In this document: piece after piece, positions 1,254 through 62,030 of the stretch
How the letters are laid out: each line of letters begins with the position of its first letter
Position numbering within the stretch: the stretch's first letter is position 1
Assembly (NCBI RefSeq): GCF_964355755.1
Contig: NC_092673.1
Span: forward strand, 18,421,001-18,485,000
Length of the DNA stretch: 64,000 bases
Source of the DNA: Antedon mediterranea
Taxonomy: Eukaryota > Echinodermata > Crinoidea > Comatulida > Antedonidae
Direction of reading: 5' to 3'
Notes under the pieces: model-generated
The model's input: only the letters and a program-made list of their open reading frames with translations
What the model was told of the DNA's origin: nothing
Database searches by the model: none
Position numbers and translations under genes: made by a program

Positions 1254-2435
1254 TGTTATACAGATATTGCCTGCTTAGAGGTAAAATATAAGATTTAACA
1301 TCCCCGAGGAATGATATTCCCTCGAACAAAATATCTTTCCCCGAGGGATGTCAAATCTTATATTTTACCGATATAAAAGGCAATATCTGTTATATTATAT
1401 ATAGCCAACAACAAGTTGAATATCTGCCTAGTTAGGCGTTGCATTCACCTTACCTTGCGAAGAATAATATACAGATAATTACTAATTAATGATTTCTTTG
1501 GCAATAAAGTATTCACTTAGACCAGGTTGTTTAAATTAACAGAAAAATTTCCATCAATAAGCCTACATTAATTATAATAATAATAATATTATCAGGTAGG
1601 CCCAATAAATAATAATTCGTATTCTTCGAGGAGCCAAGTCGCCGGATGTTCAATTGATCAATCACAAACGGTCTTTCTTCGCCTCTGGAGAAGGCTAATA
1701 ACAAATGAGGGCGCTTTGTATGCATAGTTTAAATAGTTGATTAATTTCTTCAAGCAAGTTGCGTAGCGCTGCGGGTAAAACGTCGTCTCGTGATGATGTG
1801 GGCTAATCTTCGCGAGTTCAAGTCTTAGTAGATGACACGAAAATTACACAGTCAATATCATCATACTTGAGAATTTTATTTATTTTATTTTTATTTTATT
1901 CAGTTGACAACCAACAGCAATGAAACCGCCACTAACAGGTTGAATCTAAACATAATAAACTATAATAATACCCAAATAAGCAACAATAACATAAACAAAG
2001 ATTGGAACATTATAGAGATTTTTAATTAACCTGCAAACAAAAATGTAACTTACTACGCCAATAAGGTTGATGTTTATATGCCACAACTCTACAGATCACA
2101 CATAGACCGATGTAATGCGAATAATGTATTTTAATAACTGTCAATAACTCAATACAACAACATGGAAATCAAAGCAACAACGAACGAACAACGCCAGCCC
2201 ATGAGGGCGCACTGGCGCTATCAATCAAAACTCCTAAATCCCTTTGAAAATTTACACGGATTTTATATGTTTAATGACAGGGACACGATAATTACTCGAA
2301 AATTACTCCGTCAATATCATCATACTCGAGGATACAGTATATACCATTTACAATCCTTGCAGTGGTACTCATGTGATGCAGTTTCAACCAATCACGTTCA
2401 CGTATTTACATACATTACACATGTAATATAAATAA
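1254..2435. repeat. Dispersed repeat family F1, copy B (interrupted)
   Basis: This is a second, diverged copy of F1, directly following copy A. The foldback head is at about 1260-1397, and the body matches 46800-47540. It is broken by foreign sequence of about 390 bp (about 1873-2262), which is absent from the same point of the copy at 45985-47545. The tail, with 'gatgcagtttcaaccaatca', is recovered near 2370. Confidence 0.7.
1873..2262 (-). mobile_element. Insertion inside F1 copy B, probably a retroposon
   Basis: This segment is missing from the equivalent place in F1 copy C. Its left edge is a T/A-rich tract (ttttatttattttatttttatttt). On the minus strand that reads as an A-rich 3' tail, which suggests a minus-strand retroposon fragment. 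No protein domain was recognised and the ends are approximate. Confidence 0.4.
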
Positions 2436-3119
2436 ATATTTAGCCTTGCCTTGGTGGTACTGTTACTAGTACTAACTAAAAAGGGAACCATACCTGAATG
2501 TGAAAGTTGACAAACTTTTATAGGCTAAAACCAATCATATATTACACTTAAGTCCAATTATGCGCAATTGCAGTTGAGTTTTACAAGTAGTGTTAAATGC
2601 AATTCAACTTCAGTGGAAATAGAATGTACTGCACTTAAGTCAAATATATTGCACTTAAGTCAAATGTAGTATACTTAGTTGAATACAATTGTACTTCAAT
2701 GCAATGTATTGTATCAAGGTAAATTCAAGGTATTTGTCTTAAGTTTAACTTGGAGGTAACTGATAAAATTGCTTGCCATAGCAGTGATGCTTCATCTTTG
2801 GTTCGCAGATTGTTATACTGAATTCTATGTGTATAATGTTAATATATGTTGTGAATTTTCAATTATGTATACAGTTCAAATATGAGTGGGATATTGTTGT
2901 TTTTGTATACTGGTCCCCCTTCCACAATACTTGACCCCTCTCAAATTTAGCATTAGATGCGCCCCTGCTTCAATAGGATCAAATCCCCCTTGTCATTCCC
3001 CCTCTCCAATGATCTGAGTCATGAATATTTTAAAGTGTTGCCAAGCTGACGTGAAATTTTATATAGTTCTTTTATAAACAAAATTATATGTAATTGTTTT
3101 GTTTTTGGTAATTTTTCAG
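2436..3119. other. Intergenic or intron sequence, nothing recognised
   Basis: No gene was seen. Around 2545-2710 there are several degenerate copies of a 'gcacttaagtcaaat' word, a decayed short tandem repeat. The last bases form a pyrimidine tract and AG acceptor for the exon at 3120. Confidence 0.4.
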
Positions 3120-3176
3120 ATTTAACAAGTCCTGTTAGTGATCAATTTGAGAAACTAAAGGTTGAAAAACAGAATG
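3120..3176 (+). CDS. Candidate small N-terminal exon of the ZU5-DED gene
   Basis: The exon is 57 bases, preceded by 'atttttcag' and followed by 'gtgagt', with phase 1 on both sides. It would add 19 residues (DLTSPVSDQFEKLKVEKQN) in frame before the ZU5 exon. It is separated from that exon by a 9.3-kb intron holding the large satellite. It could equally belong to another transcript. The match of phase and the good splice sites are the only support. Confidence 0.45.
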
Positions 3177-6100
3177 GTGAGTTTAAGAATCATCATCAGA
3201 ATTTACTTTTCCCTGAATTATCAAGTATTCTACTATCTTTCTAAACAGGACTGTCTGTATGTCAACCAATGCATATCTGTAGATACCTTGGCTTACTACT
3301 AGTAACAATTTCTCACTGAAAGTTCATTTATTGGGCACCAGACATTTGCAAATGCTAAGTAACTAATTGATAATATAATAATGTTGATTAAAAATCCAAT
3401 AAATCCAATATGCAAAAAAAATAAATAAACAAAGCAGAAACTGTTGGCCTACACTGTAGCTATCCACAGAATAATAGAGTATTTCAAAAAAGAGTTTGAG
3501 GGGAAAAAGTGCTTAATCAATTCAATTTCTTTTATTTCATTCTTAAATTTCATCCATACCAACAAACGTACAAACAGAAAAAAGAAAATTTGCAAACTCT
3601 AAGCTTAAATATATATGATATTTCTCCATCTACAATACATATGTTTGCAAACACAAGCAACAAGAATTTTACAACTATTCAACATACATTGCATGAAACC
3701 TTAGATAGATTTTTGCATATACTCATTAAGGGAAAGGACACTATGTTCAATAAACATCATACTGATGGCACTACTGATTCTAGAGACATTCAGTATATGG
3801 CGCAGAGCATTATTTTAGCATACATTAAGAGATCTAAATGTCTTAGATGGTCACACCAAAGGGCAGCACAATAAAGATTAATACAATAAGATCTAAAGAG
3901 GCAACATAACATTATATTAGTAATTTGCGATTGAGTGAACCCCACCCTGTCTAACTCCATTAGATACTGTAAATGGAATATATATGTTGCACAGGAGAGG
4001 GGACATAACCCCACCCTGTCTAACTCCATTAGATACTGTAAATGGAATATATATGTTGTACAGGAGAGGGGACATAACCCCACCCTGTCTAACTACATTG
4101 GATACTGTAAATGGAATATATATGTTGTACAGGAGAGGGGACATAACCCCACCCTGTCTAACTCCATTAGATACTGTAAATGGAATATATATGTTGTACA
4201 GTAGAGGGGACATAACCCCACCCTGTCTAACTCCATTAGATACTGTAAATGGAATATATATGTTGTACAGGAGAGGGGACATAACCCCACCCTGTCTAAC
4301 TCCATTAGATACTGTAAATGGAATATATATGTTGCACAGGAGAGGGGACATAACCCCACCCTGTCTAACTCCATTAGATACTGTAAATGGAATATATATG
4401 TTGTACAGGAGAGGGGACATAACCCCACCCTGTCTAACTCCATTAGATACTGTAAATGGAATATATATGTTGTACAGTAGAGAGGACATAACCCCACCCT
4501 GTCTAACTCCATTAGATACTGGTAAATGGAATATATATGTTGCACAGGAGAGGGGACATAACCCCACCCTGTCTAACTCCATTAGATACTGTAAATGGAA
4601 TATATATGTTGCACAGGAGAGGGGACATAACCCCACCCTGTCTAACTCCATTAGATACTGTAAATGGAATATATATGTTGCACAGGAGAGGGGACATAAC
4701 CCCACCCTGTCTAACTCCATTGGATACTGTAAATGGAATATATATGTTGCACAGGAGAGGGGACATAACCCCACCCTGTCTAACTCCATTAGATACTGTA
4801 AATGGAATATATATGTTGTACAGGAGAGGGGACATAACCCCACCCTGTCTAACTCCATTAGATACTGTAAATGGAATATATATGTTGTACAGTAGAGAGG
4901 ACATAACCCCACCCTGTCTAACTCCATTAGATACTGTAAATGGAATATATATGTTGTACAGGAGAGGGGACATAACCCCACCCTGTCTAACTACATTAGA
5001 TACTGGTAAATGGAATATATATGTTGTACAGGAGAGGGGACATAACCCCACCCTGTCTAACTCCATTAGATACTGTAAATGGAATATATATGTTGTACAG
5101 GAGAGGGGACATAACCCCACCCTGTCTAACTCCATTAGATACTGGTAAATGGAATATATATGTTGTACAGGAGAGGGGACATAACCCCACCCTGTCTAAC
5201 TCCATTAGATACTGTAAATGGAATATATATGTTGTACAGTAGAGAGGACATAACCCCACCCTGTCTAACTCCATTAGATACTGTAAATGGAATATATATG
5301 TTGTACAGTAGAGGGGACATAACCCCACCCTGTCTAACTCCATTAGATACTGTAAATGGAATATATATGTTGTACAGGAGAGGGGACATAACCCCACCCT
5401 GTCTAACTCCATTAGATACTGTAAATGGAATATATATGTTGTACAGTAGAGGGGACATAACCCCACCCTGTCTAACTCCATTAGATACTGGTAAATGGAA
5501 TATATATGTTGTACAGTAGAGAGGACATAACCCCACCCTGTCTAACTCCATTAGATACTGTAAATGGAATATATATGTTGCACAGGAGAGGGGACATAAC
5601 CCCACCCTGTCTAACTCCATTAGATACTGTAAATGGAATATATATGTTGTACAGTAGAGAGGACATAACCCCACCCTTTCTAACTCCATTAGATACTGGT
5701 AAATGGAATATATATGTTGTACAGGAGAGGGGACATAACCCCACCCTGTCTAACTCCATTAGATACTGTAAATGGAATATATATGTTGTACAGGAGAGGG
5801 GACATAACCCCACCCTGTCTAACTCCATTGGATACTGTAAATGGAATATATATGTTGTACAGGAGAGGGGACATAACCCCACCCTGTCTAACTCCATTAG
5901 ATACTGTAAATGGAATATATATGTTGTACAGGAGAGGGGACATAACCCCACCCTGTCTAACTCCATTAGATACTGTAAATGGAATATATATGTTGTACAG
6001 TAGAGGGGACATAACCCCACCCAGTCTAACTCCATTAGATACTGTAAATGGAATATATATGTTGTACAGGAGAGAGGACATAACCCCACCCTGTCTAACT

Positions 6101-9100
6101 CCATTAGATACTGTAAATGGAATATATATGTTGTACAGGAGAGGGGACATAACCCCACCCTGTCTAACTCCATTAGATACTGTAAATGGAATATATATGT
6201 TGTACAGGAGAGGGGACATAACCCCACCCTGTCTAACTCCATTAGATACTGGTAAATGGAATATATATGTTGTACAGGAGAGGGGACATAACCCCACCCT
6301 GTCTAACTACATTGGATACTGTAAATGGAATATATATGTTGCACAGGAGAGGGGACATAACCCCACCCTGTCTAACTACATTGGATACTGTAAATGGAAT
6401 ATATATGTTGCACAGGAGAGGGGACATAACCCCACCCTGTCTAACTCCATTAGATACTGGTAAATGGAATATATATGTTGTACAGGAGAGGGGACATAAC
6501 CCCACCCTGTCTAACTACATTGGATACTGTAAATGGAATATATATGTTGCACAGGAGAGGGGACATAACCCCACCCTGTCTAACTCCATTAGATACTGGT
6601 AAATGGAATATATATGTTGTACAGGAGAGGGGACATAACCCCACCCTGTCTAACTCCATTAGATACTGTAAATGGAATATATATGTTGTACAGGAGAGGG
6701 GACATAACCCCACCCTGTCTAACTCCATTAGATACTGTAAATGGAATATATATGTTGTACAGGAGAGGGGACATAACCCCACCCTGTCTAACTCCATTAG
6801 ATACTGGTAAATGGAATATATATGTTGTACAGGAGAGGGGACATAACCCCACCCTGTCTAACTACATTGGATACTGTAAATGGAATATATATGTTGCACA
6901 GGAGAGGGGACATAACCCCACCCTGTCTAACTCCATTAGATACTGGTAAATGGAATATATATGTTGTACAGGAGAGGGGACATAACCCCACCCTGTCTAA
7001 CTCCATTAGATACTGTAAATGGAATATATATGTTGTACAGGAGAGGGGACATAACCCCACCCTGTCTAACTCCATTAGATACTGTAAATGGAATATATAT
7101 GTTGTACAGGAGAGGGGACATAACCCCACCCTGTCTAACTCCATTAGATACTGTAAATGGAATATATATGTTGTACAGTAGAGAGGACATAACCCCACCC
7201 TGTCTAACTCCATTAGATACTGTAAATGGAATATATATGTTGTACAGGAGAGGGGACATAACCCCACCCTGTCTAACTACATTAGATACTGGTAAATGGA
7301 ATATATATGTTGTACAGGAGAGGGGACATAACCCCACCCTGTCTAACTCCATTAGATACTGGTAAATGGAATATATATGTTGTACAGGAGAGGGGACATA
7401 ACCCCACCCTGTCTAACTCCATTAGATACTGTAAATGGAATATATATGTTGTACAGGAGAGGGGACATAACCCCACCCTGTCTAACTCCATTGGATACTG
7501 TAAATGGAATATATATGTTGCACAGGAGAGGGGACATAACCCCACCCTGTCTAACTCCATTGGATACTGTAAATGGAATATATATGTTGCACAGGAGAGG
7601 GGACATAACCCCACCCTGTCTAACTCCATTAGATACTGTAAATGGAATATATATGTTGTACAGGAGAGGGGACATAACCCCACCCTGTCTAACTCCATTA
7701 GATACTGGTAAATGGAATATATATGTTGTACAGGAGAGGGGACATAACCCCACCCTGTCTAACTACATTAGATACTGTAAATGGAATATATATGTTGTAC
7801 AGTAGAGGGGACATAACCCCACCCTGTCTAACTCCATTAGATACTGTAAATGGAATATATATGTTGTACAGGAGAGGGGACATAACCCCACCCTGTCTAA
7901 CTCCATTAGATACTGTAAATGGAATATATATGTTGTACAGGAGAGGGGACATAACCCCACCCTGTCTAACTCCATTAGATACTGGTAAATGGAATATATA
8001 TGTTGTACAGGAGAGGGGACATAACCCCACCCTGTCTAACTCCATTAGATACTGTAAATGGAATATATATGTTGTACAGTAGAGAGGACATAACCCCACC
8101 CTGTCTAACTCCATTAGATACTGTAAATGGAATATATATGTTGTACAGTAGAGGGGACATAACCCCACCCTGTCTAACTCCATTAGATACTGTAAATGGA
8201 ATATATATGTTGTACAGGAGAGGGGACATAACCCCACCCTGTCTAACTCCATTAGATACTGTAAATGGAATATATATGTTGTACAGTAGAGAGGACATAA
8301 CCCCACCCTTTCTAACTCCATTAGATACTGGTAAATGGAATATATATGTTGTACAGGAGAGGGGACATAACCCCACCCTGTCTAACTCCATTAGATACTG
8401 TAAATGGAATATATATGTTGTACAGTAGAGAGGACATAACCCCACCCTGTCTAACTCCATTAGATACTGTAAATGGAATATATATGTTGTACAGGAGAGG
8501 GGACATAACCCCACCCTGTCTAACTCCATTAGATACTGTAAATGTAATATATATGTTGTACAGGAGAGGGGACATAACCCCACCCTGTCTAACTCCATTG
8601 GATACTGTAAATGGAATATATATGTTGTACAGGAGAGGGGACATAACCCCACCCTGTCTAACTCCATTAGATACTGTAAATGGAATATATATGTTGTACA
8701 GGAGAGGGGACATAACCCCACCCTGTCTAACTCCATTAGATACTGTAAATGGAATATATATGTTGTACAGGAGAGGGGACATAACCCCACCCTGTCTAAC
8801 TCCATTAGATACTGTAAATGGAATATATATGTTGTACAGGAGAGGGGACATAACCCCACCCTGTCTAACTCCATTAGATACTGTAAATGGAATATATATG
8901 TTGTACAGGAGAGGGGACATAACCCCACCCTGTCTAACTCCATTGGATACTGTAAATGGAATATATATGTTGCACAGGAGAGGGGACATAACCCCACCCT
9001 GTCTAACTCCATTAGATACTGTAAATGGAATATATATGTTGTACAGGAGAGGGGACATAACCCCACCCTGTCTAACTCCATTGGATACTGTAAATGGAAT

Positions 9101-12100
9101 ATATATGTTGCACAGGAGAGGGGACATAACCCCACCCTGTCTAACTCCATTAGATACTGTAAATGGAATATATATGTTGTACAGGAGAGGGGACATAACC
9201 CCACCCTGTCTAACTCCATTAGATACTGTAAATGGAATATATATGTTGTACAGTAGAGGGGACATAACCCCACCCTGTCTAACTCCATTGGATACTGTAA
9301 ATGGAATATATATGTTGTACAGTAGAGGGGACATAACCCCACCCTGTCTAACTCCATTAGATACTGTAAATGGAATATATATGTTGTACAGGAGAGGGGA
9401 CATAACCCCACCCTGTCTAACTCCATTAGATACTGTAAATGGAATATATATGTTGTACAGGAGAGGGGACATAACCCCACCCTGTCTAACTCCATTAGAT
9501 ACTGTAAATGGAATATATATGTTGTACAGGAGAGGGGACATAACCCCACCCTGTTTAACTCCATTAGATACTGTAAATGGAATATATATGTTGTACAGGA
9601 GAGGGGACATAACCCCACCCTGTCTAACTCCATTAGATACTGTAAATGGAATATATATGTTGTACAGGAGAGGGGACATAACCCCACCCTGTCTAACTCC
9701 ATTAGATACTGTAAATGGAATATATATGTTGTACAGGAGAGGGGACATAACCCCACCCTGTCTAACTCCATTAGATACTGTAAATGGAATATATATGTTG
9801 TACAGGAGAGGGGACATAACCCCACCCTGTCTAACTCCATTAGATACTGTAAATGGAATATATATGTTGTACAGGAGAGGGGACATAACCCCACCCTGTC
9901 TAACTCCATTAGATACTGTAAATGGAATATATATGTTGTACAGGAGAGGGGACATAACCCCACCCTGTCTAACTCCATTAGATACTGTAAATGGAATATA
10001 TATGTTGTACAGGAGAGGGGACATAACCCCACCCTGTCTAACTCCATTAGATACTGTAAATGGAATATATATGTTGTACAGGAGAGGGGACATAACCCCA
10101 CCCTGTCTAACTCCATTAGATACTGTAAATGGAATATATATGTTGTACAGGAGAGGGGACATAACCCCACCCTGTCTAACTCCATTAGATACTGTAAATG
10201 GAATATATATGTTGTACAGGAGAGGGGACATAACCCCACCCTGTCTAACTCCATTAGATACTGTAAATGGAATATATATGTTGTACAGGAGAGGGGACAT
10301 AACCCCACCCTGTCTAACTCCATTAGATACTGTAAATGGAATATATATGTTGTACAGGAGAGGGGACATAACCCCACCCTGTCTAACTCCATTGGATACT
10401 GTAAATGGAATATATATGTTGTACAGTAGAGGGGACATAACCCCACCCTGTCTAACTCCATTAGATACTGTAAATGGAATATATATGTTGTACAGGAGAG
10501 GGGACATAACCCCACCCTGTCTAACTCCATTAGATACTGTAAATGGAATATATATGTTGTACAGGAGAGGGGACATAACCCCACCCTGTCTAACTCCATT
10601 AGATACTGTAAATGGAATATATATGTTGTACAGGAGAGGGGACATAACCCCACCCTGTCTAACTACATTAGATACTGTAAATGGAATATATATGTTGTAC
10701 AGGAGAGGGGACATAACCCCACCCTGTCTAACTCCATTGGATAATGTGGATTGGAAACAGAGTTACCCCAATGTATCACAAAACTTTGTTTCTCATACCA
10801 ACATTTGAGCAATTTAACAATACAAAGATTCATACCATTGTTAATGAGCTTACTATGAAGAGTCCACATTGATTGACTTGATCAAAAGCCTTACTGGCAT
10901 CTAGAGAGCAGGCAAAAACTGGACTACCATTTCTATTGTAGTAGTCAATGACATGTTTTAATACAAAGATACAAGTATCAGTCAAGTGTTTTGCTTTAAA
11001 TGCAAATTGGTAGTCGCTGGATTCAAATGAGTTACCACAGTGACTGATCAAAATAAATTTAAAAAACTTAGATAATACAGAAGCTAAAGCATAGGGGTAT
11101 AATTGTTGTTATTAGTAATATCACCTGATTTACTCTTAACAATCGGCACTAATAACTAGAATAACACATGACCATGACACAGCATATCATTAAAGCATAT
11201 ACTCAATAAGATATTAACCCTTTAAAGACATGGCCCGCATCCATACGGGGTAATTTACTGTCCCAGGACATGCAATCAGGCGCAGGATTGGTTAAGGCAA
11301 ATAACAGAATAGGCAAATTGGTTGGTTTTTTCATTGGAAAGCAGCAAATAAGCCTATCCTACAACACTGCTAAAAGCAGTCCCACTGTCCATTTGACCAA
11401 TTCTGCGCTTTTTTAAAGACATGAGGCCCGTATATGTACGGGTTGACTTTTTGGGGTCACTAAATTGCACTTTTTGAGCATTTGACCTTTGAACTAGGCA
11501 AAACAAAAATTTTTTGGAAGGCCAAAACATTTCACATAATAAATCCAACAATTGCAGAAAGTTATATAGTCATAAAAATGGATTTTTTCATTTTTCCTAA
11601 ACCTATTAAAAATACCTTATTTAGCCTCAGTCACTTGGGGTAGAAGAAACCTTGCGTCTTCAAATGGTTAAGTCCTTTACTAGCATATTTAATGTGTGCA
11701 CAATAATAATTTATTATTATACTGTATGACACACTCATCAATGTAAACAATTAACCATTACAGTGTGTTATATGCATAGATATGAATGCAGATGTAGAAA
11801 ATGTGTAATGGAATAATAGGAATAAAGATTGTATGAAATTGTCTGTTAATCCTGGAAAGTTCAATTCAATTTCAATATTATAACATAAAAAACATAAAAC
11901 TAGTTTGTTAATAAATATAATTGCATATAAATACAATGAAAAGTAGTTCAGTCATGAGGGTAGAGAGTAATGTAAGTCAGAAGATATAACATTAAATACA
12001 AAAAAGAAAAAGAAATACATGAACTAATAGTATATATTTAAAAAAAACAAAGCCACAATTTCTATTTAAACCACTTTATCCGATCTTAACAGGTCTTATT

Positions 12101-15100
12101 ATAATATATATATTTAATGTTCATCATATCTAGAAAGTAAAAGACTAAACATTAATTTAGAAACACAGTGTAAATATTTACAATAGAATGAGTATTGTAT
12201 ATTCTGTATAATATATTGTATATAATTATTAATAAGCTGGTGTAGTATTGATACCACAGCAGAAACTGGCCACAATAAAAAATGAATGAAAATGAAATAT
12301 AACTATTCTATAAATATAACCATTGAGAAATAATTTCTTCATGATATAAATAAACACATGTGTATGATAAATCAGGTTGAAATAAAATAATTTGCATTGT
12401 GTAATGAAGACAATTGTGGCAATGGCTATTTATCAAATACCAATATCTTACATTAGATTTTTATTTTTCAGATCAAATTATGGAAGTAATTGTGGGATCT
12501 GCTGGTGAAACACTTCATCTTAAGGATGAAGACATCAAGTTGGAGATACATTCTGAAGCAATTGAAGGGGAAACAGTTAAAGTATCGCTAGAAAATTTTT
12601 CTGAGGAAACAGGCATGCCTGTACTTCATTCTCATGAATCAATAATATCACCTATTGTTAAATGTGGACCAGAAGGCACCAGCTTCAAAAAGCCCATTTT
12701 ATTGTCATTTCCACACGATGCTGTAAATGAAGAGAATTGGAAATTCACTCTACTTGTTAAAGATCGCATTCAAGATGAATGGAAACAAATAGCATTGACA
12801 AATGATAGAAAGGACGTTCATTTTACTTTAAACAACGGTCGATGTTATGTAACTTTAAAACATTTCTGTTTTTATACACTAATGGGTCATCTAAGGAATT
12901 TGTTTGGTAAGAAAAAAATGTTGTTAGGAGTTTTTGGAAAGATGCTTTCAAATGATGATTATCAACTTCTAACAAGATTTTGTAAGCCATCAGATAAAAA
13001 GGTAATTGCTATAATTTGTTTTTAAACTGTATTTGAATAATGTACTAATAAATTGGATAATTTAATACCTCAATAAATTCCTGCTATTTGATTGGATGAT
13101 TGTGGGTCACATGGTGTGCAATAGTACATAAATAATCAATGTTTATAAGTGTAATGGTAGAAACAATGAGATGATTGATGAAAGGTTATGATTCAAAGCC
13201 GAGTTGAACATAACATTTCATTATTCACCAAATGCCATTATTTGTACAATTACACGAATCTAAAACATGCATCTATATATTAATGCTACTAAATTAGTTT
13301 CATAATTTTACGTATCTCCCTCGAAAGCGCTGAATGGTATATGCTCATATTTGACTGATGTTTCTTGATGAGATGCACACGATAGGCTATAACTCTTTCC
13401 TCAACTTGAAGCAAAAAGTAACAGTAATTTGAGAGCCATGTTTCATGAGTTGTTACATCACGTATCAACTATGCAACCTCCTCTGTTGTGTAACGTAATG
13501 GTTGGATCTACAAATACTATGCAGAGCCACCAAATTACAGTGTTTAGTCTCGACAGCCGGCCAACCGTATCAACTGATTGCGTTTAATTAATCACACTTA
13601 TTCGTGGAACATAATAAATTTTGTAAATCATGGCTACCTTGGTGATTAAAACACTTTGGTCAATGATATTTTTAGTATATTCAAGTTTGAATTCATGAAA
13701 TGTGTAAATAATAATTATCACCGCTTAATGGCAAAAATCGAAACTAGACAGGCCTAATCCAACCCCCACCAAAATTCATCAGTGGCAGGAATTCGTTCAC
13801 CTAAGTACCATTTTGAGAGAGATAGTGCTCTTAATATTAAAAAAAACCTTAAGTAACTGTTCTATTAAACCTGATATTGCTCATTTAAAAAAATAAATGA
13901 AACCTTTACTACTTCAAATCAAGAGATTGGTGATTTGTTTAATAAGCCTTTTCAATCAGTTTTAATCCAGGAAAAATGTAACAACATCTCAAAACCAAGA
14001 TTGAAAATATTAAATTTCAGTGTTCAATATCTCCAATCCTGAGGGCCCATTACACACAAGGTCACTTATATATTTACGAATTGACAACATTTTTTTATGC
14101 AAGAGTGATAAAACTCTGGAACAAACTTCCCTCAAATGGTTTCATGCACTACGTTCCATATTTTTAAGAACACCTCTGCAAAGAGTGAAGTTACTGTTAC
14201 TTTTCAGTTGATTAACATTACTGTACTTACAGTTAAAATTATTTTAAAAATTAAGGTATTGATAAATCATGTAATTGAATTGATCTGTTAATAATTATAA
14301 AATATGCTGTGAAGAAGTGATGATTGCCATGTACACTTCCCTCAAATAATTAAGAGACAAAAAAAACTACAAATATATCTGTATATTACTACTATAAGTA
14401 TATACATATTTCAGATGATTGAAGAAGACCACATAAAAATTGGTGAGCAGCCTTTAATAGTACCTGAAAATATACTTGTCATGTATAAGGACATGAAAAT
14501 CACTGTAGCATTATCAAATCAGGAATGGAAAGTTCAGAAGGATGAAGAAGTAAGAATATTTTTTTTATAATTTTATAATTTTATGAATAATCATAATATT
14601 TTTAGTACTGAAAGTTGCCATGGTAAAGAATATGCATTAAATTTGCAGTAATACGACATAACTTGATCATTAATAACCAAAAATCCATTGCTATCCAATT
14701 AAGCATACTGGTCCATGATACTAAGTTCTTGGAATACAAAATTGTGATTAGTTCTTTGGAGGATACACACACATTTTTTTAGATTTCTTATTGAGAGAAA
14801 AAATGAAAGCATTACCAGTATAAAAAAAATATTTAAAAAAATATATATAAATAAATAGTATAATATTTATTCACCACAGCAATCAATTTAACTACAATGC
14901 CTTATAATATAATATAATAGTAATAATAATTTAATATAATATAATTTATCTTAGCATGACTTCATTGTTTCCCTAGAATGTCAAGGCGGAAAACCTATGG
15001 CGTACAGGACCATCCAAGAAATTTCTTTTAAGAAGAAGTAATTCTTCAGCAAAAGTCCTAAAGGCAACAGTATTACTTTCACAAGAGTCAAATGATATTG

Positions 15101-18100
15101 ATCCAGTGGAAGTGAATTGTAAGTATATAAAATGCTAACAGTAAGTCTAAATTTAGAAAGATGATTGTAATAAATAAAATGTAGTATTCAAATACGGTAA
15201 TCAGACATTAACCATCCATGACAATAACCACCCATTATTGACTGTACCATAGTTAGAATATGGGTTGGAAACAATGTAACGCCCGTATTCTTAAACCGGA
15301 CTTTAGTCGTAGTTCGAAGTTCGACTTGAAAAAGTCGTAGTTCGAGCTATTACTTCAAATTCGATTCAAAAACGAAGTAGTCGAAGTTTGCAGTTCGACT
15401 TAATGAAGTCGAGCTTTTAGTCGAGTTGCACACGTCTGGGTAACAAAGGCTATACATTGGCCAATGACAAGAGAGTATTTGAGGAGCAGAAGAAATTTTG
15501 CGCATTGATATTACTTTCCATTTCTTACAACACTTTTTACGCATCAGGACTATATATATGAAAAATAATTTTAATCGTTAATTATTAGAACAAGATCAGT
15601 ATTAATTTAACAGTGAAGTATATTTGATTAACAACAAATAAAATCTTCAAAATATATTTAGGAACCACGGCGGTACGGTAACTTTTATATTAGGCCCCCA
15701 ACAAAGTATGATCGCGACGAACCACGCACTTCATAGCGTGACAAGAAAGCGCTAGGCCCCCTAAACATTCCATCGCGTGGTGAATTGCCGCATCTCCCAT
15801 TGTCGCTATGGCGTGACGTAGCTCAAGTCGGACTTGCGTGAAGAAAATAATGTAATTTGTATACAGTTCTAAATAAAGATGATTTTCATTATTATAACTT
15901 ATACCAATGTATATTTAATTAAGCTAATATAAATATAGATATTTCATTCTTCAATATCTGGCCAATATAACAACTCAATGACTGTTACGTTTTTTATAAA
16001 CATCGTTTAAAAACCATTTAGTCGACCATTTAGCCTGCCCCCTTCAGGACTAAAAAAATCGATCAAAATCCGTCTCGATTTAGTCGAGGTTAGCCTGAAT
16101 TAGTCGGCGATTTAGTTGAAGTTCGGTTTATGAATTAAAATGACGTCATTTTTTTAGTTTTAGCTCGAACTACGACTAAAGTCCAGTTTAAGAATACGGG
16201 CGTAAGTGTTGGCTTGTTTTTTATCTAGCACTACAATACACTTTGGTTACATTGCTATAAATCCTAAAACACCTTAATTCTTCCTATATCAAACGGAATA
16301 TTCTTATTCCGAATATCGGTTGGGTAGTTTTTTTTTCTCATTCTCTCAGATTTCCTCATTGAAATTTTTTTTTTTTATTATTTAATTTCCAGGATAATAT
16401 CACTGGTCGAGTTTTTCTATACATATATATAAATCTGGTTTCTTTTTTTATTGAAATAATAATTATATATTTTATTTGTTATAGGTAATGTTGAGACATC
16501 AAGACCAAATCTAGGTATGTTATAATTTTAATTATGGTAATGATGTAGATTAAGTCTGTTTTCACCTTGACTAAAAGAACAGCATGAGCCAATACGTCTG
16601 AGGCAGATAATAGATGCAGCGGCTGCCATAATGGTCAGCCTCTGTGTTGATTTCAAATGCCTGATGGAACCCCAGCTTCATATATACAGCACTGATATTC
16701 CTAGATGGTCTCCCATCCAAGCTCCAACCAGGTCCAACATTGCTTACCTTAACTGATCAGACAAGAAAACCAGTGTTTCAACATGACAAGGTCATATTAT
16801 ATGTAGTGAACAAACATTACCAGACTACAATTTTAGAATTTAATTAATTACAATATAGGTTAAATTCCGGCCAATGTGAAAAGTTTTATGGTAAGTTCCG
16901 GCAAAGTTGCAGGCATCTATAACTACTAACTGCTAGCACGCCTATGAGAAAAGGACTTTTAAACCACGATACTTTATAGCAAATATATTTACTGTAATTT
17001 TTAGCTAATTTGTTTCATCTCATGCCAGTACAGGTGTTTCTTCTGGTATTGGTGTGTCTTCTGGTACAGGTGTGTCTTCTGGTGCAGGTGTGTCTTCAGG
17101 TGCAGGTGTGTCTTCAGGTGCAGGTGTGTTTTCTGGTGCAGGCACATCTTCTGGTGCAGGTGTGTCTTCCGGTGTAGGTGTGTCTTCAGGTGCAGGTGTG
17201 TCTTCTGGTGCAGGTGTGTCTTCAGGTGCAGGTGTGTCTTCAGGTGCAGGTGTGTCTTCCAGTACAGGTGTGTTGTCTGGTGCAGGTGCATGGAACCGAG
17301 GTATTAGGCAAGGTAATAATACTCTTTAGTAGTACTTAGAAAATATATATAATAAATTTAGGTTTTTTTAATACAGATACAATGCAAAGTTTTCACCGGA
17401 AATGCCGTCTTGAATATGTGACCTACTATTCCCTCCTATTCTACTCACAGACTAGAATCGTCATGGTCAATAAAAAAAATAACATCGTTGTATTGTCACG
17501 ATATTATTGCTCTTACTGACCATGACGTCATTTGATTGCACGTGTGAAAGTATTATTTTCATCAAAGGCAGCATATATGGTTATCCTATAGTTCTAGTAT
17601 TAAAACTTTTTAGATTTTCTTTGTTTTATGTATGAAAAATGCATATTTATTCATGTGTAAATCAGGCCCGTAGCCAGAATGCATCAGAGGGGGGGTTTTC
17701 TTGACCCCAATTATATTGCGAGCGCAGCAAGCCACTGTAGGCTGGGGGCCGGCAAGGGGGCCAGGGGCCTTGGAAGCTTTGGCTCTCAGAGCAATTTCGG
17801 TTGTTTTAATCAGCTTACAGAGACATCGGACACTATATTCGATCGATTTAAACATAGTCAATAGAAGTAAAATGACCAAAAAATCTGCTATAATTGATAA
17901 TTAATTGCACGATTTTGGAAGTGGGGCCTTTGTTTTTCAACAGTGGTGGCGCCAGCCTTATACTTAGGCGGGGGGCCTAAAATGTACGTTTCACTGTAGG
18001 CTCGCCTACTGTAGCCTACATTATTAAACAAAAACATGCCATTTTCGTTTAGCCAACATCTTATTATAGCTAAGTTATTACATTTCCAATGTCCTGTATG

Positions 18101-21100: not shown

Positions 21101-23367
21101 AGACAATTGGAACTTATCTAAGCTAATTATGGTTTTTCCAACAATTCCACGTCCTGTAGGGATGTCCCCATTAATTAATCAAAATCCTAAAAACGATCTA
21201 AAGCTAATTTAAATGCCTTTTTGAATGAAATTAGTACATAATGTCCAAATCGTACACAAATATCTGCTGCTGTTGCATATCTCGCGGTGGTGTTTACAAA
21301 TGAAACTCAGACCAGACGACAGGTGGCGCTGTTGTATTTCACAGTACATAGCCATATCATAGGATAATTTGTGTACTAGATTTTTTTTCATCCGCGAGAC
21401 GTTTTTTTTTTCGTACACAAAAATGTTTCAAAAAGTACTATTTAACGATCGTTGAATAGTGCGTACTATTGCACGCCATGTGACCCACATTCGTCCAATC
21501 AAATGACAGGAATTTATTTAGGTGTTATATAATATTTGATATTTGCTTCTCTTCAACTGTGTAGCTCTCTCGAAGGGTGACTTTAAACAGTTGATTGCAG
21601 ACTTTGCAAAATGGTTTGATGACCATGGACTCCTCAACAGCCTAAAAGTTCTTTTCTTAGAATGGTTAGGTGTTGAAGTATTGAAAAGGGTTACAAGTAC
21701 AAGAGAACTATTAGATCATTTAATCAATTCTGATCTATTGAATCAACAACATCTTGCTGTCCTGTATGACACAATAAAAGTAACTGGACAATTTGACTTT
21801 CAGTCATCTGTCACAAAAAAGCTTTCTTCTTTCAAGAATATCAAAAAGTGTAAGGTAGTGTCACTACACACAGTCAATCTTTTTGATTGGGGAAAATCCC
21901 TCAGTGATCAGGATATAAAGGATCTTGACATACAATACAACTACCCTTTCCTTAAGAAGTATGCAGACGGTTGGAGTTTGACTTTGGATTTTGAAGCTCG
22001 AGGGTTGTTGGAAAGACAGAATCAAATCAGTTAAGAAAATAGACTTTTAGCTTTAACTTGCGATGTAATATGCTTGAACTCTTGGTTTAATTACCCACCA
22101 TATTGTACAGTAGATAGCATCTGATGATCTTGTAGGTATGGAAGGCAACAATCCACTGGCAAAAACCACTTTACAAATGTCTTCATGGCCTCTTTGAGAT
22201 AGCCCTGTTAAATTGAATTTTGAATAATTTCAACTATATTATTACAGAACCCCTATTAAGGGGACACCTTTGCGACCCAAACAGTTGTTCCCTTAATAGG
22301 GGTTTTTGGGGAGAAGAATTGACAATTTAGCAGCCCACTTTTCACCAATGAAAACTGTCCAGCCAGAGAAAGTATCATAATTTTTATCATAATCATTATG
22401 ATATCCATTTTTTGATATACAGTAAATGAATAAGTTTGGTATTTTTTTTGTAATGGGGAAGAAAATTGTTGTTCCCTTAATAGTAATAAAAAAAACATTT
22501 TGCACTATCAAACATGTCCCTGTCCGCTTAGTATTTCATGAGAAAGTGTCCCCTAAACATATAATATTTCCCCTTGTTTCATGAGAAAGTGTCCTCTAAA
22601 CATATAATATTTCTCCTTGTTTCATGAGAAAGTGTCCTCTAAACATATAATATTTCCCCTTGTTTCATGAGAAAGTGTCCCCTTAATATGGCTGTGTCCC
22701 CTTAATAGGGGTGTGTTCCAAAGGAGGGGTTCTACTGTATAAAGATTTTATGTTATAATATTTCAGTGTAATAAACGGTACATGCTTCAATAGTATGCAT
22801 AATAATAACATGTTTTTTTGTTTTTTTAAAATTAAAGTACTATCCAAGAGTAACTATCGAAAACTACTTGTGGAAGTGTCATCATGGTGGAAAGAACATA
22901 AGAAGATCAATTTACTGAAATTCATCCTTTTAATGTTCGAACAAGTTACTCTAACCGACATAGAGAGAGAAGATGATCCAGTCAAACTCTTTGAGTTACT
23001 TGGAGCTCCTGGAATAATTAGCCCGTCAAATGTGGATGTTCTACTTGAAGCTGTTGTAATCGGAGGAATGGGGGGTGTGGACGAGGAAAAGATCAAGCAA
23101 TTGATACCAAGCTTTCCTGGATTCAGTCAAATAAAAATTCCTGACTTCTGGGATAAGTGTCAAAAGTTGATCGGATTTGGACGTAAGATAGGTATTGATG
23201 AGCAAACCAACATTGGACATGTGTGTGGAGTGAAAAGTAAACCTAATGATGTTTGGGCTTTGATGTTTGAACTTGAAAGGCAACGACTTTTCACTGAAGA
23301 AAGGACAAAATTCATTCAACTGCTAAAAGACATTGACCTGGATAGACATGCAGCATTATTAGAATAG
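3120..23367 (+). CDS. ZU5-UPA-DED protein gene (5' end uncertain)
   Basis: Proposed exons: 3120-3176, 12472-13001, 14415-14549, 14977-15118, 16485-16514, 17034-17312, 19415-19624, then either 21565-22034 or 22838-23367. Every junction has GT/AG borders and compatible phase. The protein reads ZU5 domain, UPA-like region, GVSSGA-repeat linker, Ser/Gln-rich linker, then a death-effector-like C-terminus, about 620-640 residues with the first exon included. ZU5-UPA modules followed by a death-fold domain are known from UNC5, ankyrin and PIDD-type proteins; here a DED-like fold takes the place of the usual death domain. The family role (adaptor in apoptosis or immune signalling) is inferred. The start is unsure: either upstream of the window or the ATG at 12480, which has a purine at -3 and G at +4. 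No transcript evidence is available. Confidence 0.65.
3675..3935 (-). pseudogene. C-terminal remnant of a LINE reverse transcriptase
   Basis: Read on the minus strand just past the satellite, one frame gives LFRSYCINLYCAALWCD. Adjoining frames give NALRHILNVSRIS and further residues with stops and frameshifts. From family knowledge this is the region C-terminal to the polymerase core of CR1/Jockey-like LINEs, where a conserved 'LFRSYC..LYC..LW' block precedes a 'YN..LR.IL...R' block. The catalytic FADD-box region that should lie between this and the NIYI motif is absent. With the N-terminal part at 10743-11100 it brackets the 69-bp array in correct order and strand. Confidence 0.65.
3936..10742 (-). 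repeat. 69-bp satellite array (about 98 copies) made from a reverse-transcriptase motif
   Basis: About 98 head-to-tail units fill 6.8 kb. Most are 69 bp; 15 units are 70 bp, with an extra G (ctGgtaaatgg), all left of about 8330. Because 69 is a multiple of 3, several frames on both strands stay open for long distances, up to about 890 codons. On the minus strand one frame reads PFT-VSNGVRQGGVMSPLLYNIYI per unit, which is the conserved motif region of LINE reverse transcriptases (RQGxxLSPLLFNIYI type). The flanks on both sides are the adjacent parts of such an enzyme. The array is not considered protein-coding. Variants (CAC/TAC, AGG/AGT, tCCatt/tACatt) recur in blocks, suggesting higher-order duplication. 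Confidence 0.95.
10743..11100 (-). pseudogene. N-terminal part of LINE reverse transcriptase, broken
   Basis: The minus-strand translation contains FAFKAKHLTDTCIFVLKHVI, then SLDASKAFDQVNQCGLF, and, after a frameshift, LLKCWYEKQSFVIHWGNSVS, running into the first satellite unit (SNGVRQGG). These are the consecutive motifs (fingers, the first catalytic Asp region as DASKAFD, then the region before RQG) of non-LTR retrotransposon RTs. Upstream in the minus direction the match continues weakly to about 11100. At least two frameshifts make it a pseudogene. It lies antisense in the intron of the ZU5-DED gene. Confidence 0.8.
11214..11671. mobile_element. TTAA-flanked MITE, piggyBac-like
   Basis: TTAA is present at 11214-11217 and 11668-11671. 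The ends are imperfect terminal inverted repeats: 'ttaaccctttaaagaca' on the left and the complement of 'tgcgtcttcaaatggttaa' on the right. TTAA targets and TTAACCC-type ends are characteristic of piggyBac-superfamily elements. The 450-bp interior has no transposase frame, so it would be non-autonomous. Confidence 0.6.
11672..12471. other. AT-rich intron sequence, nothing recognised
   Basis: This 800-bp stretch leads to the ZU5 exon. It contains only simple AT-rich sequence and ends in the acceptor tract 'ttatttttcag'. Confidence 0.5.
12472..13001 (+). CDS. ZU5-domain exon
   Basis: The exon starts after 'tttttcag' in phase 1 and ends at 'aag|gtaatt' in phase 0, giving 177 codons. The protein has the ZU5 pattern: a glycine-rich start (IVGSAGETLHL), an acidic/aliphatic strand (IKLEIHSEAIEGETVKVSL), the hallmark 'SPIVKCGPEGTSFKKPILLSFPH' (seen at about residues 60-82), a strand with W (DEWKQIAL) and a final 'VTLKHFCFYTLMG'. 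ZU5 is a beta-rich scaffold found with UPA and death domains in UNC5, PIDD and ankyrins. The exon's last 35 residues (from LLGVFGKML) begin the UPA-like region. An in-frame ATG at 12480 could serve as start. Confidence 0.85.
13068..13275. repeat. Repeat family F2, short copy
   Basis: It contains 'attgtgggtcacatggtgtg', the reverse complement of the right end of the F2 copy at 20600-21530, followed by the foldback core (agtgtaatggtag ... ccattatttgtacaattaca). It is therefore an internally deleted or rearranged copy. It lies 66 bases after the ZU5 exon. Confidence 0.6.
13880..14190 (+). pseudogene. Internally deleted LINE fragment
   Basis: The plus strand encodes TSNQEIGDLFNKPFQSVLIQ (near 13915-13975), which resembles the 'K...LN..F.SVFT' block before the RT domain. 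About 100 bases later it encodes FYARVIKLWNKLPSNG (near 14090-14140), which resembles the 'R....WN.LP' block at the very C-terminus of CR1/Jockey-like ORF2. The whole polymerase core is missing between them. It is an intronic relic of the ZU5 gene. Confidence 0.55.
14415..15118 (+). CDS. UPA-like region, two exons (14415-14549, 14977-15118)
   Basis: The first exon is 135 bases, phase 0 at both ends, starting MIEEDHIKIGEQPLIVPENI. The second is 142 bases, phase 0 to 1, and contains NLWRTGPSKKFLLRRSNSS. Together with the end of the ZU5 exon, this has the layout of the UPA domain that follows ZU5 in UNC5 and PIDD. In those proteins the layout is a '...PL.....L.I.....W' strand pair, a '..IW.....F.L.R' segment and a closing strand. 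The similarity is by pattern only. The intron between the exons carries no recognisable element. Confidence 0.6.
15280..16202. mobile_element. TIR element with TAA target duplication (Harbinger-like MITE)
   Basis: The left end 'cgcccgtattcttaaaccgg' and the complement of the right end (cgcccgtattcttaaactgg) match for about 40 bases, continuing through 'actttagtcgtagttcga'. TAA flanks both sides (15277-15279, 16203-16205). A 3-bp TWA duplication is typical of PIF/Harbinger elements. No transposase is encoded. It lies within an intron of the ZU5 gene. Confidence 0.7.
16485..16514 (+). CDS. Ten-codon linker exon of the ZU5-DED gene
   Basis: Thirty bases between 'ttgttatag' and 'gtatgt', phase 1 at both ends. 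It encodes CNVETSRPNL and joins the UPA region to the glycine/serine linker without disturbing frame. Confidence 0.5.
   Translation, partial: VMLRHQDQI
16565..16768 (-). mobile_element. 5S-rRNA-derived SINE (or 5S pseudogene with tail)
   Basis: The minus strand from 16768 to about 16683 matches the second half of eukaryotic 5S rRNA. It has 'tctgatcag', then 'cctggttggagcttggatgg', 'gagacc' and 'ggaatatcagtgctgta', which cover the internal A-box, intermediate element and C-box promoter. The 100+ bases after it (to about 16565) are not 5S. A 5S head joined to an unrelated body fits SINE3-type elements, which are known from sea urchin and fish. It is intronic. Confidence 0.65.
17034..17312 (+). 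CDS. GVSSGA hexapeptide-repeat linker exon
   Basis: The acceptor is 'tgccagtacag|gtg' and the donor 'caag|gtaata', phase 1 at both ends, 279 bases. Nearly all of it is an 18-bp repeat encoding about 14 variants of G-V-S-S-G-A (with IG, TG, FSGA and LSGA variants), ending GAWNRGIRQ. This is a flexible low-complexity spacer between UPA and the C-terminal death-fold region. An AG at 17027-17028 is an alternative acceptor but gives the wrong phase. Confidence 0.6.
17655..17900. repeat. Dispersed repeat with 'cccgtagccagaat' head
   Basis: The words 'caggcccgtagccagaatgc', 'gggggggttttcttgacccc' and 'gcgagcgcagcaagcc' are typical of an abundant repeat class seen across marine invertebrates, as I recall. 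No second full copy was found in the window. Open frames on both strands here are not taken as genes. Confidence 0.35.
18270..18850. repeat. Degenerate ~110-bp tandem repeat
   Basis: Five or more decayed units repeat the order 'gacctagcagctct', 'ttcttagctc', 'aacccaaccatggttgg', 'ctggtcc.gtagac.tataatt'. The reverse complement of the same unit is found at about 55780-56010 in the Roc-COR gene. Confidence 0.6.
19415..19624 (+). CDS. Gln/Ser-rich linker exon
   Basis: The acceptor is 'tatgtatag' and the donor 'gaag|gtaagt', phase 1 at both ends, 210 bases, 70 codons with no stop. The product starts GNGGKKENEITSSG and continues in repeats of the type QQCEPSSSQQ. It is low complexity and probably an unstructured spacer before the death-effector-like exon. 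A decayed relative of this exon and its flanking introns is found at about 55395-55700. Confidence 0.6.
19826..20339. mobile_element. TIR element (MITE)
   Basis: The left end 'atatatcagaagaatgagca' recurs as the reverse complement 'tgctcattcttctgatatat' at 20312-20331. The ~510-bp interior has no protein frame. No clear target duplication was identified. Confidence 0.6.
20600..21530. repeat. Repeat family F2, long copy, with foldback core
   Basis: The core (about 20620-20785) folds back: 'aatgaatgtttatgagtgta' and 'aaaggttatatttcaac' recur as reverse complements ('tacacgaatacaaaacattc' with a mismatch, 'gttgaaatataacctttc'). The body, rich in 'aggcctagcctaatactag', matches 51480-52225. It ends with 'gccatgtgacccacattcg', just before the acceptor of the DED exon at 21565. 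Confidence 0.75.
21565..22034 (+). CDS. Terminal exon A: death-effector-like domain
   Basis: The acceptor 'caactgtgtag' is followed in phase 1 by ALSKGDFKQLIADFAKWFDD. The next helices read LKVLFLEWLGVEVLKRV, then TRELLDHLINSDLLNQQHLA and VLYDTIKVTGQFDF. This order (LxxLLxxxL helix 2, short helix 3, 'LL..L...DLL...HL..L' helices 4-5) is the DED pattern, though the RxDL motif of helix 6 is absent. A second helical segment follows (YADGWSLTLDFEARGLLE). The stop is at 22032-22034, about 17 residues earlier than in exon B. It is alternative to the exon at 22838-23367, with the same acceptor phase and its own stop. Confidence 0.6.
22244..22740. mobile_element. TIR element with 43-bp internal tandem repeat
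   Basis: The left end 'acagaacccctattaagggg' and the complement of the right end (acagtagaacccctccttt) match imperfectly. 'cccttaataggggt' words recur on both strands, so it can fold back. Inside, at about 22535-22685, a 43-bp unit with 'tttcatgagaaagtgtcc' is repeated about three times. A degenerate relative lies at about 42470-42580. It separates the two alternative DED exons. Confidence 0.55.
22838..23367 (+). CDS. Terminal exon B: death-effector-like domain
   Basis: The exon follows a strong pyrimidine tract and 'attaaag', in phase 1. It begins VLSKSNYRKLLVEVSSWW, parallel to ALSKGDFKQLIADFAKWF in exon A. Next come LLKFILLMFEQVTLTDI, then KLFELLGAPGIISPSNVDVL and LEAVVIGGMGG, again DED-like. 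A second helical stretch reads DVWALMFELERQRLFTEERT and FIQLLKDIDLDRHAALLE. That stretch resembles helices 3-6 of another death fold, so the exon may encode a tandem pair. The stop is at 23365-23367. It arose by exon duplication with exon A and the DED exon at 54199-54738. Confidence 0.6.
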
Positions 23368-25047: not shown

Positions 25048-26889
25048 TGAAACTATTTTACTATAAAAATCCATAATATCTTTCATGATTTCTTAACAAA
25101 ATAGATCTCTCATTCACGTAAATTTCTGCCGCCACATATTTTGGATTGCTTTTAATTTTTTTTAAATGGGCCTATTCAATTATCAAATCAAGTAGTATAT
25201 TAACCGGTGAAGAAGTACAGCCTATAACCAATCAACACAACAAATCGTAACATAATAATAATAAGCCACAGAAAAAGAAGCCAAGGCAAATTTCATATTT
25301 CAATGAATAGATTGTATCATAGGCTATAACAATAGTAATAGGTTACAAATACAAATTGTTACGGTGTAAGCATGGAGTAAAGAATATCTAGCTTGTCTTG
25401 AAAAATTAGTGAAACAGTGTGGTGATGTGAGATTCCGTTTTTCGAACTTTTTTTCTGTTGTTGGTCAATTTATTCAGTTTTCTATTTTCATTTTCACACT
25501 TGCATAGAGACTACTTGTATTTTGCGCTATATAAATTTAAAACCATTATATTGAATAAACAGTAGCCAAAACATGGTATTTTGGTAAATCTAATCCAGCA
25601 GAAGTACTGAATTATGTTTTTTTCAGCCTTTTATAGTAATTTTACCGACTTTTAAACAATTTTGACTTAAAATCATGTCATACGAGCACTTCGAATTGGA
25701 CAATTCGCGTCGTTTTTATGAAAAAGTACAAAAATGCGTCAAAATTATGCCTTTTTTTTAACAGTCATAGTTTCTAAACTACATGGTGCAGTTTATTTTT
25801 ATTACATATTCTGGAAGTAGATGCGTTGTGACGTCATCGTATGGCCACTTGAATATAAAATATAGGATTTTTGTCATAGCTCATCACATTTAATAGAGCG
25901 CATCTCCACTTATCCGTATTCCATTTCCCCCCATTTTTTTATATTGTCTAGGTCAATCAATTATCTTTCGCATGATTTACCATTTTTTAAATTGTGATGA
26001 CGTCATCTTGTTCACAAAAAAATTGTAAAAATTGGATGAAAAGGCGGGTCCCGTTATTTTCACATATTCTGCACTGTATGTAGTACGTATAAAATATATA
26101 GTGACGTATACTGTATATACTTAGACGTGACACACAATAGAGAGCACACTAACATTTTTTCAATGGCTTAATTGTTTTTCTTTGGGCAATAATTATTCTA
26201 ACGTATGATGTGCACATGGTGTTTGCGCGGCGGATAACCTAACTCGTCTATTTTTAGTGCTGCAACTGCAATATTTTAAAATAAACCTTGAATATAAATA
26301 ATAATAATTAACTACAAGAAAGGCTGGTTTTTATTTTTTAAAATTATTTTATTATTTATTATTTTACTGTGTTTGTTTTCAATTTCTGTAAATAAATAAT
26401 AAATAAATTATATTAAATTAAATAAAGACACCTTGATTATATATCTTTTCAAGAGGATTTTATGGAAACAAACATACTTTTTTTTTTTCCTTTTTTTCTT
26501 GTTTACATTCTACATTATTTTTTAAAAATTGTATAAAATATGTTTGCTGGCGATTTGATGTTGGAAAAAAGCCACTGCAATCCATTTATCCATCCAACAT
26601 TGTCATATTGTAGTAACACGGTATGTACGTATAAGGTAATCCGGAGTTTTCACCACTTATTTTTACCAACTAGACAATCAAGCTGTAACAATGTTATGAA
26701 CACCTTTGTATTTCCTTTTTACTTTAATTGAAGACGGTTTAATCTATCACTAGGCCTATATTTATAATTGACTGAATTACAATTATACTTTTGATGGTGA
26801 TCCTTGAAATGCTTATCTCTGAACACTGTGTACCTACCTATTCATTACTTAATCCACATAAGTTGTAATAAGTGTTATTTGTTTTTGTG
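25048..26889. other. AT-rich intergenic sequence, nothing recognised
   Basis: There is no supported gene between the LINE fragment and the next LINE. Several 'gtgatgacgtcat' words (about 25838, 25995) hint at decayed TIR or repeat DNA, but no element could be delimited. Confidence 0.4.
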
Positions 26890-61194: not shown

Positions 61195-62030
61195 CTCAAC
61201 AACACAATTTGTTGATAAATCTAAAAGCTGTAGGAATCACTGTATTTATAGTACAGGGATTTTAACAACACAATTTGTTGTGGATAAATCTAAAAGCTGT
61301 AGGAATCACTGTATTTATAGTACAGGGATTTTAACAACACAATTTGTTGTGGATAAATCTAAAAGCTGTTGGAATCCCTGTATTTATAGTACAGGGATTT
61401 TAACAACACAATTTGTTGTGGATAAATCTAAAAGCTGTTGGAACCCCTGTATTTATAGTACAGGGATTTTAACAACACAATTTGTTGTGGATAAATCTAA
61501 AAGCTGTAGGAATCCCTTTATTTATAGTACAGGGATTTTAACAACACAATTTGTTGTGGATAAATCTATAAGCTGTAGAAATCACTGTATTTATAGTACC
61601 GGGATTTTAACAACACAATTTGTTGTGGATAAATCCAAAAGCTGTGGGAATCACTGTATTTATAGTACAGGGATTTTAACAACACAATTTGTTGTGGATA
61701 AATCTAAAAGCTGTAGGAATCACTGTATTTATAGTACAGGGATTTTAACAACACAATTTGTTGTGGATAAATCCAAAAGCTTTAGGGATCACTGTATTTA
61801 TAGTACAGGGATTTTAACAACACAATTTGTTGTGGATAAATCCAAAAGCTGTAGGAATCACTGTATTTATAGTACAGGGATTTTAACAACACAATTAGTT
61901 GTGGATAAATCCAAAAGCTGTAGGAATCACTGTATTTATAGTACAGGGATTTTAACAACACAATTTGTTGTGGATAAATCTATAAGCTGTAGGAATCCCT
62001 GTATTTATAGTACAGAAATTTTTACAAAAA
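61195..62030. repeat. 69-bp minisatellite, about 12 copies
   Basis: Units carry 'aacaacacaatttgttgtgg', 'ataaatctaaaagctgtagg' and 'tgtatttatagtacagggat'. Because 69 is divisible by 3, a plus-strand frame stays open through all copies (TTQFVVDKSKSCRNHCIYST per unit). There is no start context or splice evidence, so it is treated as non-coding. It abuts the broken end of the BEL/Pao remnant. Confidence 0.9.

Follow-up and report, generated by a model that had tools for sequence, protein, structure and literature searches.

We analysed a stretch of 64,000 nucleotides from the crinoid Antedon mediterranea (contig NC_092673.1, positions 18,421,001 to 18,485,000), referred to below as the window, in which a long tandem array with a 69-bp unit lies inside a copy of a long interspersed nuclear element (LINE) and is built of repeats of a short piece of its reverse transcriptase (RT) gene. 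Tandem Repeats Finder places the array at 3938-10747, with 98.5 copies, 97% matches and a score of 12974, values that exclude its having arisen by chance; the roughly 98 tandem units that the initial annotation had placed at 3936-10742 are real. Cut at a fixed anchor, the array yields 98 full units, with a length of 69 bp in 83 cases and of 70 bp in 15; 45 of these units are identical to the consensus, and a boundary unit lies at 10715-10747 on the LINE side. The consensus unit translates on the minus strand to MSPLLYNIYIPFTVSNGVRQGGV, or, in the register of the LINE, to PFTVSNGVRQGGVMSPLLYNIYI, which is the RQG..SPLL block of LINE RTs; the same identification had been made in the initial annotation, and both the translation and an alignment of 121 proteins agree with it. 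The initial annotation also attached meaning to the unit being an exact multiple of three bases, and this part did not survive: 70-bp units are frequent in the window and dominant in a sister array (88 of 125 units at locus L009, described below), so that the divisibility by three is incidental, and the fifteen 70-bp units break the reading frame of the window array repeatedly.

The source of the unit is a LINE family dispersed in the same genome (354 Mb in 18 contigs, all of which were searched; the window lies on the contig labelled C4). The left flank of the array matches this family at no fewer than 40 places, and there are at least 42 matches to the right flank (10736-11160), the weaker of which are 67-70% identical; the window itself and its sister loci are among the places counted, and both counts are lower bounds, as 40 of 177 first-look candidates were scored for the left flank and 40 of 51 for the right. 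One copy, L018, retains an open frame of 640 amino acids with an RT domain (Pfam RVT_1, E 2.2e-24), as found in endonuclease-type LINEs. A large protein search returned 1288 relatives of this open reading frame (ORF), and many of the 120 that were listed carry the precomputed Exo_endo_phos domain (PF03372), while the L018 ORF itself gave no match to an APE-like endonuclease domain; its sequence matches in the PDB are the R2 and LINE-1 ORF2 proteins. Judged from these relatives, the source LINE would belong to the endonuclease-type non-LTR (long terminal repeat) retrotransposons, from whose intact members the copy in the window differs in being a broken fragment. The 23-residue block occurs once in the L018 ORF (residues 375-397, between SN and STLNC), and six of its residues, N380, G381, Q384, G385, S389 and P390, are invariant in all 121 aligned proteins, i.e. 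the L018 ORF and the 120 listed relatives; the equivalent of the YADD motif follows 26 residues past the block.

The initial annotation had proposed looking in the genome for the same LINE without the array, and ten distinct copies with a single block were found (L018, L019, L020, L025-L030 and L032). The search, from which the array loci had been omitted beforehand, gave 14 rows, of which four (L024, L005, L008 and L004) represent L018, L020 and L019 again, cut differently. In all ten copies the LINE sequence continues on both sides of the block in the 40 bases printed, the array unit is 90-97% identical to the single blocks, and the exact 18-base junction between units is present in none of them; in two further LINE fragments (L006 and L007) the part examined yielded no match to the block. 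The array unit is therefore homologous to a dispersed element of its own genome, as in minisatellites derived from transposable elements (TEs).

The LINE copy in the window continues, in decayed form, on both sides of the array and on the minus strand. The right side (10748-11217) holds the part of the RT that precedes the block, with 87.8% identity to L018 over 550 columns (10685-11217), and the similarity stops near 11217. The left side (3517-3937) holds the C-terminal region past the catalytic motif of the RT together with the tail, with 77.1% identity to L018 over 454 aligned columns (3517-3938). Alignment of the junctions with the single-block copies shows that the array passes in register into the LINE at the right joint, where the source block serves as the first unit and has lost four bases (ATTT). 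At the left joint a partial unit stops at GGGGT and is followed by LINE sequence from 400 bp farther along in L018; the stretch missing amounts to 400 bp by comparison with L018, 399 bp with L020 and 364 bp with L019, and it includes the YADD-equivalent motif. The array thus lies within a copy of its own element, with LINE sequence on both sides. The claim of the initial annotation that the flanks encode the enzyme parts before and after the block stands as made for the right side, whereas on the left the later part of the enzyme begins only past the gap of about 400 bp. The second half of the unit falls within the deleted stretch, and the first duplication must therefore have preceded the deletion or been part of the same event. 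No clear target-site duplication of the LINE could be recognised by eye. At the 5' edge of the LINE, a segment bounded by TTAA and with similar ends (about 11215-11672) is perhaps, judging by eye, a small nested DNA transposon.

Two unit-junction patterns, one of 40 bp with up to three mismatches and one of 31 bp, were searched on both strands of the whole genome. The former gave 125 matches, all forward, and the latter 228 forward, none reverse and none for the control. Counts made by script in four fetched loci (83+35+3+4 and 98+123+3+4, respectively) account for 125 of 125 and 228 of 228 matches, and by these patterns the array is therefore present at four places. All four are on contig C4 within 1.1 Mb: L017 at 17.339 Mb (4.5 units), L009 at 18.056 Mb (125.4 units), L011 at 18.117 Mb (3.5 units) and the window at 18.425 Mb (98.5 units), a 36-fold range of copy number among paralogues. 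All four have the left joint at the same place, L009 with a single-base substitution, and the right-side LINE as well as the 4-bp deletion in the boundary unit are also common to the four. Past the left joint the LINE continues in the window, L009 and L011, and for its first 10 bases only in L017.

These counts bear on the possibility that an independent satellite was inserted into a LINE copy or took one up, its RT match being inherited from an older LINE-derived satellite. Satellites with monomers related to LINE coding sequence are on record, among them chicken HinfI (CR1 ORF2/3' untranslated region), PROsat (L1 ORF2) and Pvc20 (L1 ORF2) (PMC9659126), the first two being tabulated also in PMC6947457. 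However, neither pattern revealed a fifth locus, and at all four loci the array runs in register into the right-side LINE with the source block as its first unit. The initial annotation had itself stated that an origin in place would be wrong if the unit occurred as an independent satellite at many loci lacking LINE flanks; every junction match falls within the four LINE-flanked loci, and on these two genome-wide counts we reject a captured satellite, which we regard as highly improbable. Nor is the array a satellite in the strict sense, which implies many loci or megabase scale: there are four loci on one contig, 0.24-8.7 kb long. The flank matches and the joints common to four loci instead uphold the proposal that the array grew inside a LINE copy whose flanks are still present, and this in-place origin is strongly supported.

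A fifth paralogue, L049, aligns with the window at 82.5% identity on the left and 74.5-88% on the right and carries neither the LINE nor the array. Its sequence matching 2243-3183 directly abuts that matching 11758-11959, so that the whole segment 3184-11757, comprising LINE, array and adjoining sequence, has no counterpart there; that L049 never had the insert is a simpler explanation than its loss. Just before this segment lies a putative plus-strand exon (3120-3176), conserved in L049 and followed by GTGAGT at 3177-3182, with splice signals recognised by eye, and the next recognisable coding part of this paralogous gene family is a plus-strand ORF with a ZU5 domain at 12408-13025 (Pfam E 7.5e-17), matched in L010, L011 and L049. 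The array would accordingly lie in a putative intron, and the LINE would have the opposite orientation to the gene. In L017 (4602-4633) a deletion places the array 23 bases past a sequence resembling a splice acceptor, TTTTTCAG, and array units could be exonised there.

We propose that the LINE integrated next to an exon of a ZU5-domain gene on the present contig C4, in antisense orientation, and that in this copy the 69 bp coding for the RQG..SPLL block of the RT were tandemly duplicated. About 400 bp downstream of the partial unit would have been lost simultaneously with the duplication or afterwards, and the small array with its flanks would then have been copied into four paralogous loci. 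At two of these the array would have stayed or become short (3.5 and 4.5 units), and at the other two it would have grown to 98.5 and 125 units, probably by unequal exchange and/or slippage, with gene conversion between the loci possibly helping. The array encodes nothing, and its growth is best read as that of a neutral intronic minisatellite. Taken as a whole, we consider this account very probable.

The start of the duplication may have been a slipped-strand event. A survey of human TE-derived tandem repeats considers two start models, duplication between direct repeats of 5-20 bp and slipped-strand mispairing, recognisable by a terminal unit shortened by up to 10%, and states that the two explain only 6% of such repeats (PMC3389668). 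The former is rejected here: in 10 of 10 single-copy LINEs no more than 1-3 bases match in register within 20 bases of the two ends of the duplicated stretch, although an out-of-register match of 5-6 bases exists at these ends. The boundary unit on the LINE side, lacking 4 of 69 bases, could count as a short terminal unit; the left end was cut far deeper by the deletion of 400 bp.

The later history of array length can be approached from the flanks and from the unit variants. In the left flank (3129-3937) the window differs from L011 by 1.4% and from L009 by 2.5%, and in the right flank (10748-13044) by 3.5% and 4.0%, respectively, so the nearest relative of the window, with 98.5 units, is L011, with 3.5. 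For L011 and L009 we disregarded the figure obtained in the left four-locus segment (12.7%), because the slices compared differed in length and inflated it. All five informative sites of the left four-locus segment group the window with L011. Some unit variants are private to one locus: 58G>T (18 of 98 units) and 53T>C (15 of 98) occur in the window and in none of 125 units at L009, while 52G>A (7 of 125) and 55C>A (6 of 125) occur at L009 and in none of 98 units in the window. Within the window array, the mean pairwise difference is 1.0% among the 30 units at 8645-10714, the most homogeneous part, vs 2.7% among the 68 units at 3938-8644, which suggests that the right-end units are the youngest and result from a late burst of growth. 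A lag of five units is enriched among the variant types in the window (reached by 1 of 500 shuffles); a strong higher-order structure is rejected, this being the only such signal.

Several observations weigh against the account as we give it. The single informative site of the right four-locus segment groups the window with L009, in conflict with those on the left, and five unit variants are common to the window and L009 even though the flanks put the window with L011: a G insertion at unit position 31 (15 units in the window, 85 at L009), 20C>A (9 and 5; present in L011 too), 25A>G (14 and 5; present in L017 too), 63G>A (10 and 5) and 11T>A (1 and 20). Either a larger ancestral array that shrank at L011 or an exchange of units between loci follows from this, and simple independent growth from three to four units is not proven. 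Besides, adjacent units resemble each other hardly more than distant units do, L009 shows no conspicuous lag (its best one is reached in 201 of 500 shuffles), the array lengths are known from a single assembly, and L049 could have lost the insert.

The shared variants are what would be expected if a large array predated the duplication of the loci, the short arrays of L011 and L017 being collapsed remnants and the 98.5 and 125 units near the ancestral size. The presence of 20C>A in the unit beside the right boundary in the window, L009 and L011 is likewise expected if the array lost its middle part and kept its old ends. Such a history would, however, need two independent collapses, and both the private variants, several of which are frequent in the window and L009, and the high homogeneity of the right 30 units in the window speak against it, so that we regard it as possible but doubtful. 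We prefer a history in which the array grew at two loci and some exchange took place.

A selected function of the array, as a coding 23-residue protein repeat or as a binding array, might be suspected from its long stop-free frames on the minus strand (813 and 895 amino acids) and from the distinct unit substitutions at the four loci, 15 of which are synonymous, 20 change the residue and none creates a stop, compared with 52, 148 and 7 of 207 possible ones. This excess of synonymous changes is partly expected from transitions, 22 of 69 of which are synonymous vs 30 of 138 transversions. Moreover, the frames break constantly (15 of 98 units in the window and 91 of 125 at L009 differ from 69 bp), the putative gene is on the opposite strand, and the copy number ranges from 3.5 to 125 among paralogues. 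As the frame is not kept, a coding repeat is rejected, and selection of either kind is highly improbable. Tandem arrays are frequently mis-sized in assemblies, and the copy numbers or the duplicated loci could in principle be haplotype or collapse errors. However, the loci differ in their flanks by 0.4-7.7% (the one inflated value omitted) and by larger deletions (compared with matches inside the array left out), and many unit variants are locus-specific, so that the loci are not copies of one locus; an artefact is very unlikely.

The surroundings of the array bear on a possible further role for exchange. In 250-bp bins, scored by best match per base with no collinearity filter, the window mostly shares 97-99.6% identity with the other loci up to about 2 kb from the array, and at greater distances most bins have lower values; single bins at 3000-3250 have 90.6-94.8%, and identity to L011 is 77-93% beyond 12.75 kb and 86.5-97.8% left of 1.75 kb. 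Because identity is highest near the array, and because unit variants are common to the window and L009 despite the flanks, the array might be a site of recombination through which the sequence around it is spread and homogenised among paralogous introns. We consider this unlikely: identity between the window and L009 is again 94.7-98.3% in the bins from -2000 to -1250. The pattern could come from simple duplication of a block within a gene cluster or from conversion with the array at its centre.

Other repeats are found in the same neighbourhood. An 18-bp array (CAGGTGTGTCTTCTGGTG) in the paralogous region varies from 14.3 copies in the window (17031-17288) to 7.4 in L011 (6636-6768) and 23.6 in L017 (6800-7224). 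Arrays with 88-bp and 36-bp units, at 52394-53506 and 56468-56653 of the window, are also found beside the L011 locus (L012, 3119-3693 and 1-111), so the sharing extends to larger parts of the cluster. Three weak death-effector-domain matches, below the Pfam cut-off, at 21540-22034, 22759-23367 and 54153-54752, together with the ZU5 domain at 12408-13025, suggest a cluster of death-fold genes. Elsewhere in the window, a second array of period 69 (61198-62027; 12.1 copies, 95%) appears by eye to be of unrelated sequence (AACAACACAATTTGTTGTGG...) and has a plus-strand frame of 359 amino acids running through it. A minus-strand open frame of 560 amino acids (62318-64000) resembles by eye a retrotransposon polyprotein with an integrase part, perhaps BEL/Pao-like. 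A second, different LINE-like stretch lies on the plus strand at 26862-29178 (Exo_endo_phos, E 6.2e-6; PHD-like start by eye), and the ORF after it has no Pfam match. No RNA families were found in the window at Rfam gathering scores.

As outlined above, the array is a real, in-place LINE-derived minisatellite. The initial annotation had called such a case unusual, which overstates it: TE-derived minisatellites are common, making up 23% of human minisatellites and satellites according to the survey cited above (PMC3389668). As in the human cases it describes, the array formed within an individual TE copy and grew by local duplication, and, as in most of those counted there, an in-register direct repeat of 5-20 bp is missing; most human cases with no known start mechanism have two units, in contrast to about 98 and 125 here (PMC3389668). 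HinfI, PROsat and Pvc20 are similar in their LINE-coding monomers and differ in being listed as satellite families (PMC9659126), whereas here there are only four paralogous loci with the source copy around the array. In Lathyrus sativus, short tandem arrays inside retrotransposons have likewise been expanded at some loci into satellites, but those elements are LTR retrotransposons that carry short arrays (PMC7004042), unlike the ten sister LINEs with a single block. No report in the literature searched was recognised as describing this array, and the coverage being partial, this is weak evidence.

The kind of event is thus known, and it is the comparison series that is unusually complete. The beginnings of tandem repeats are hard to study, since the state from which they arose has usually disappeared. 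A single genome here contains, unlike the human cases, the unduplicated source in single-copy relatives, an insert-free paralogue and four sister arrays with the same joints, two of them very short and two long. If the array did act as a recombination site, a dead RT fragment would shape gene conversion in a cluster of ZU5-domain genes. The array is at odds with the direct-repeat start model, and the series lets one ask which step made the first duplication, whether the growth has a polarity, and how fast array lengths diverge relative to point mutations in the flanks.

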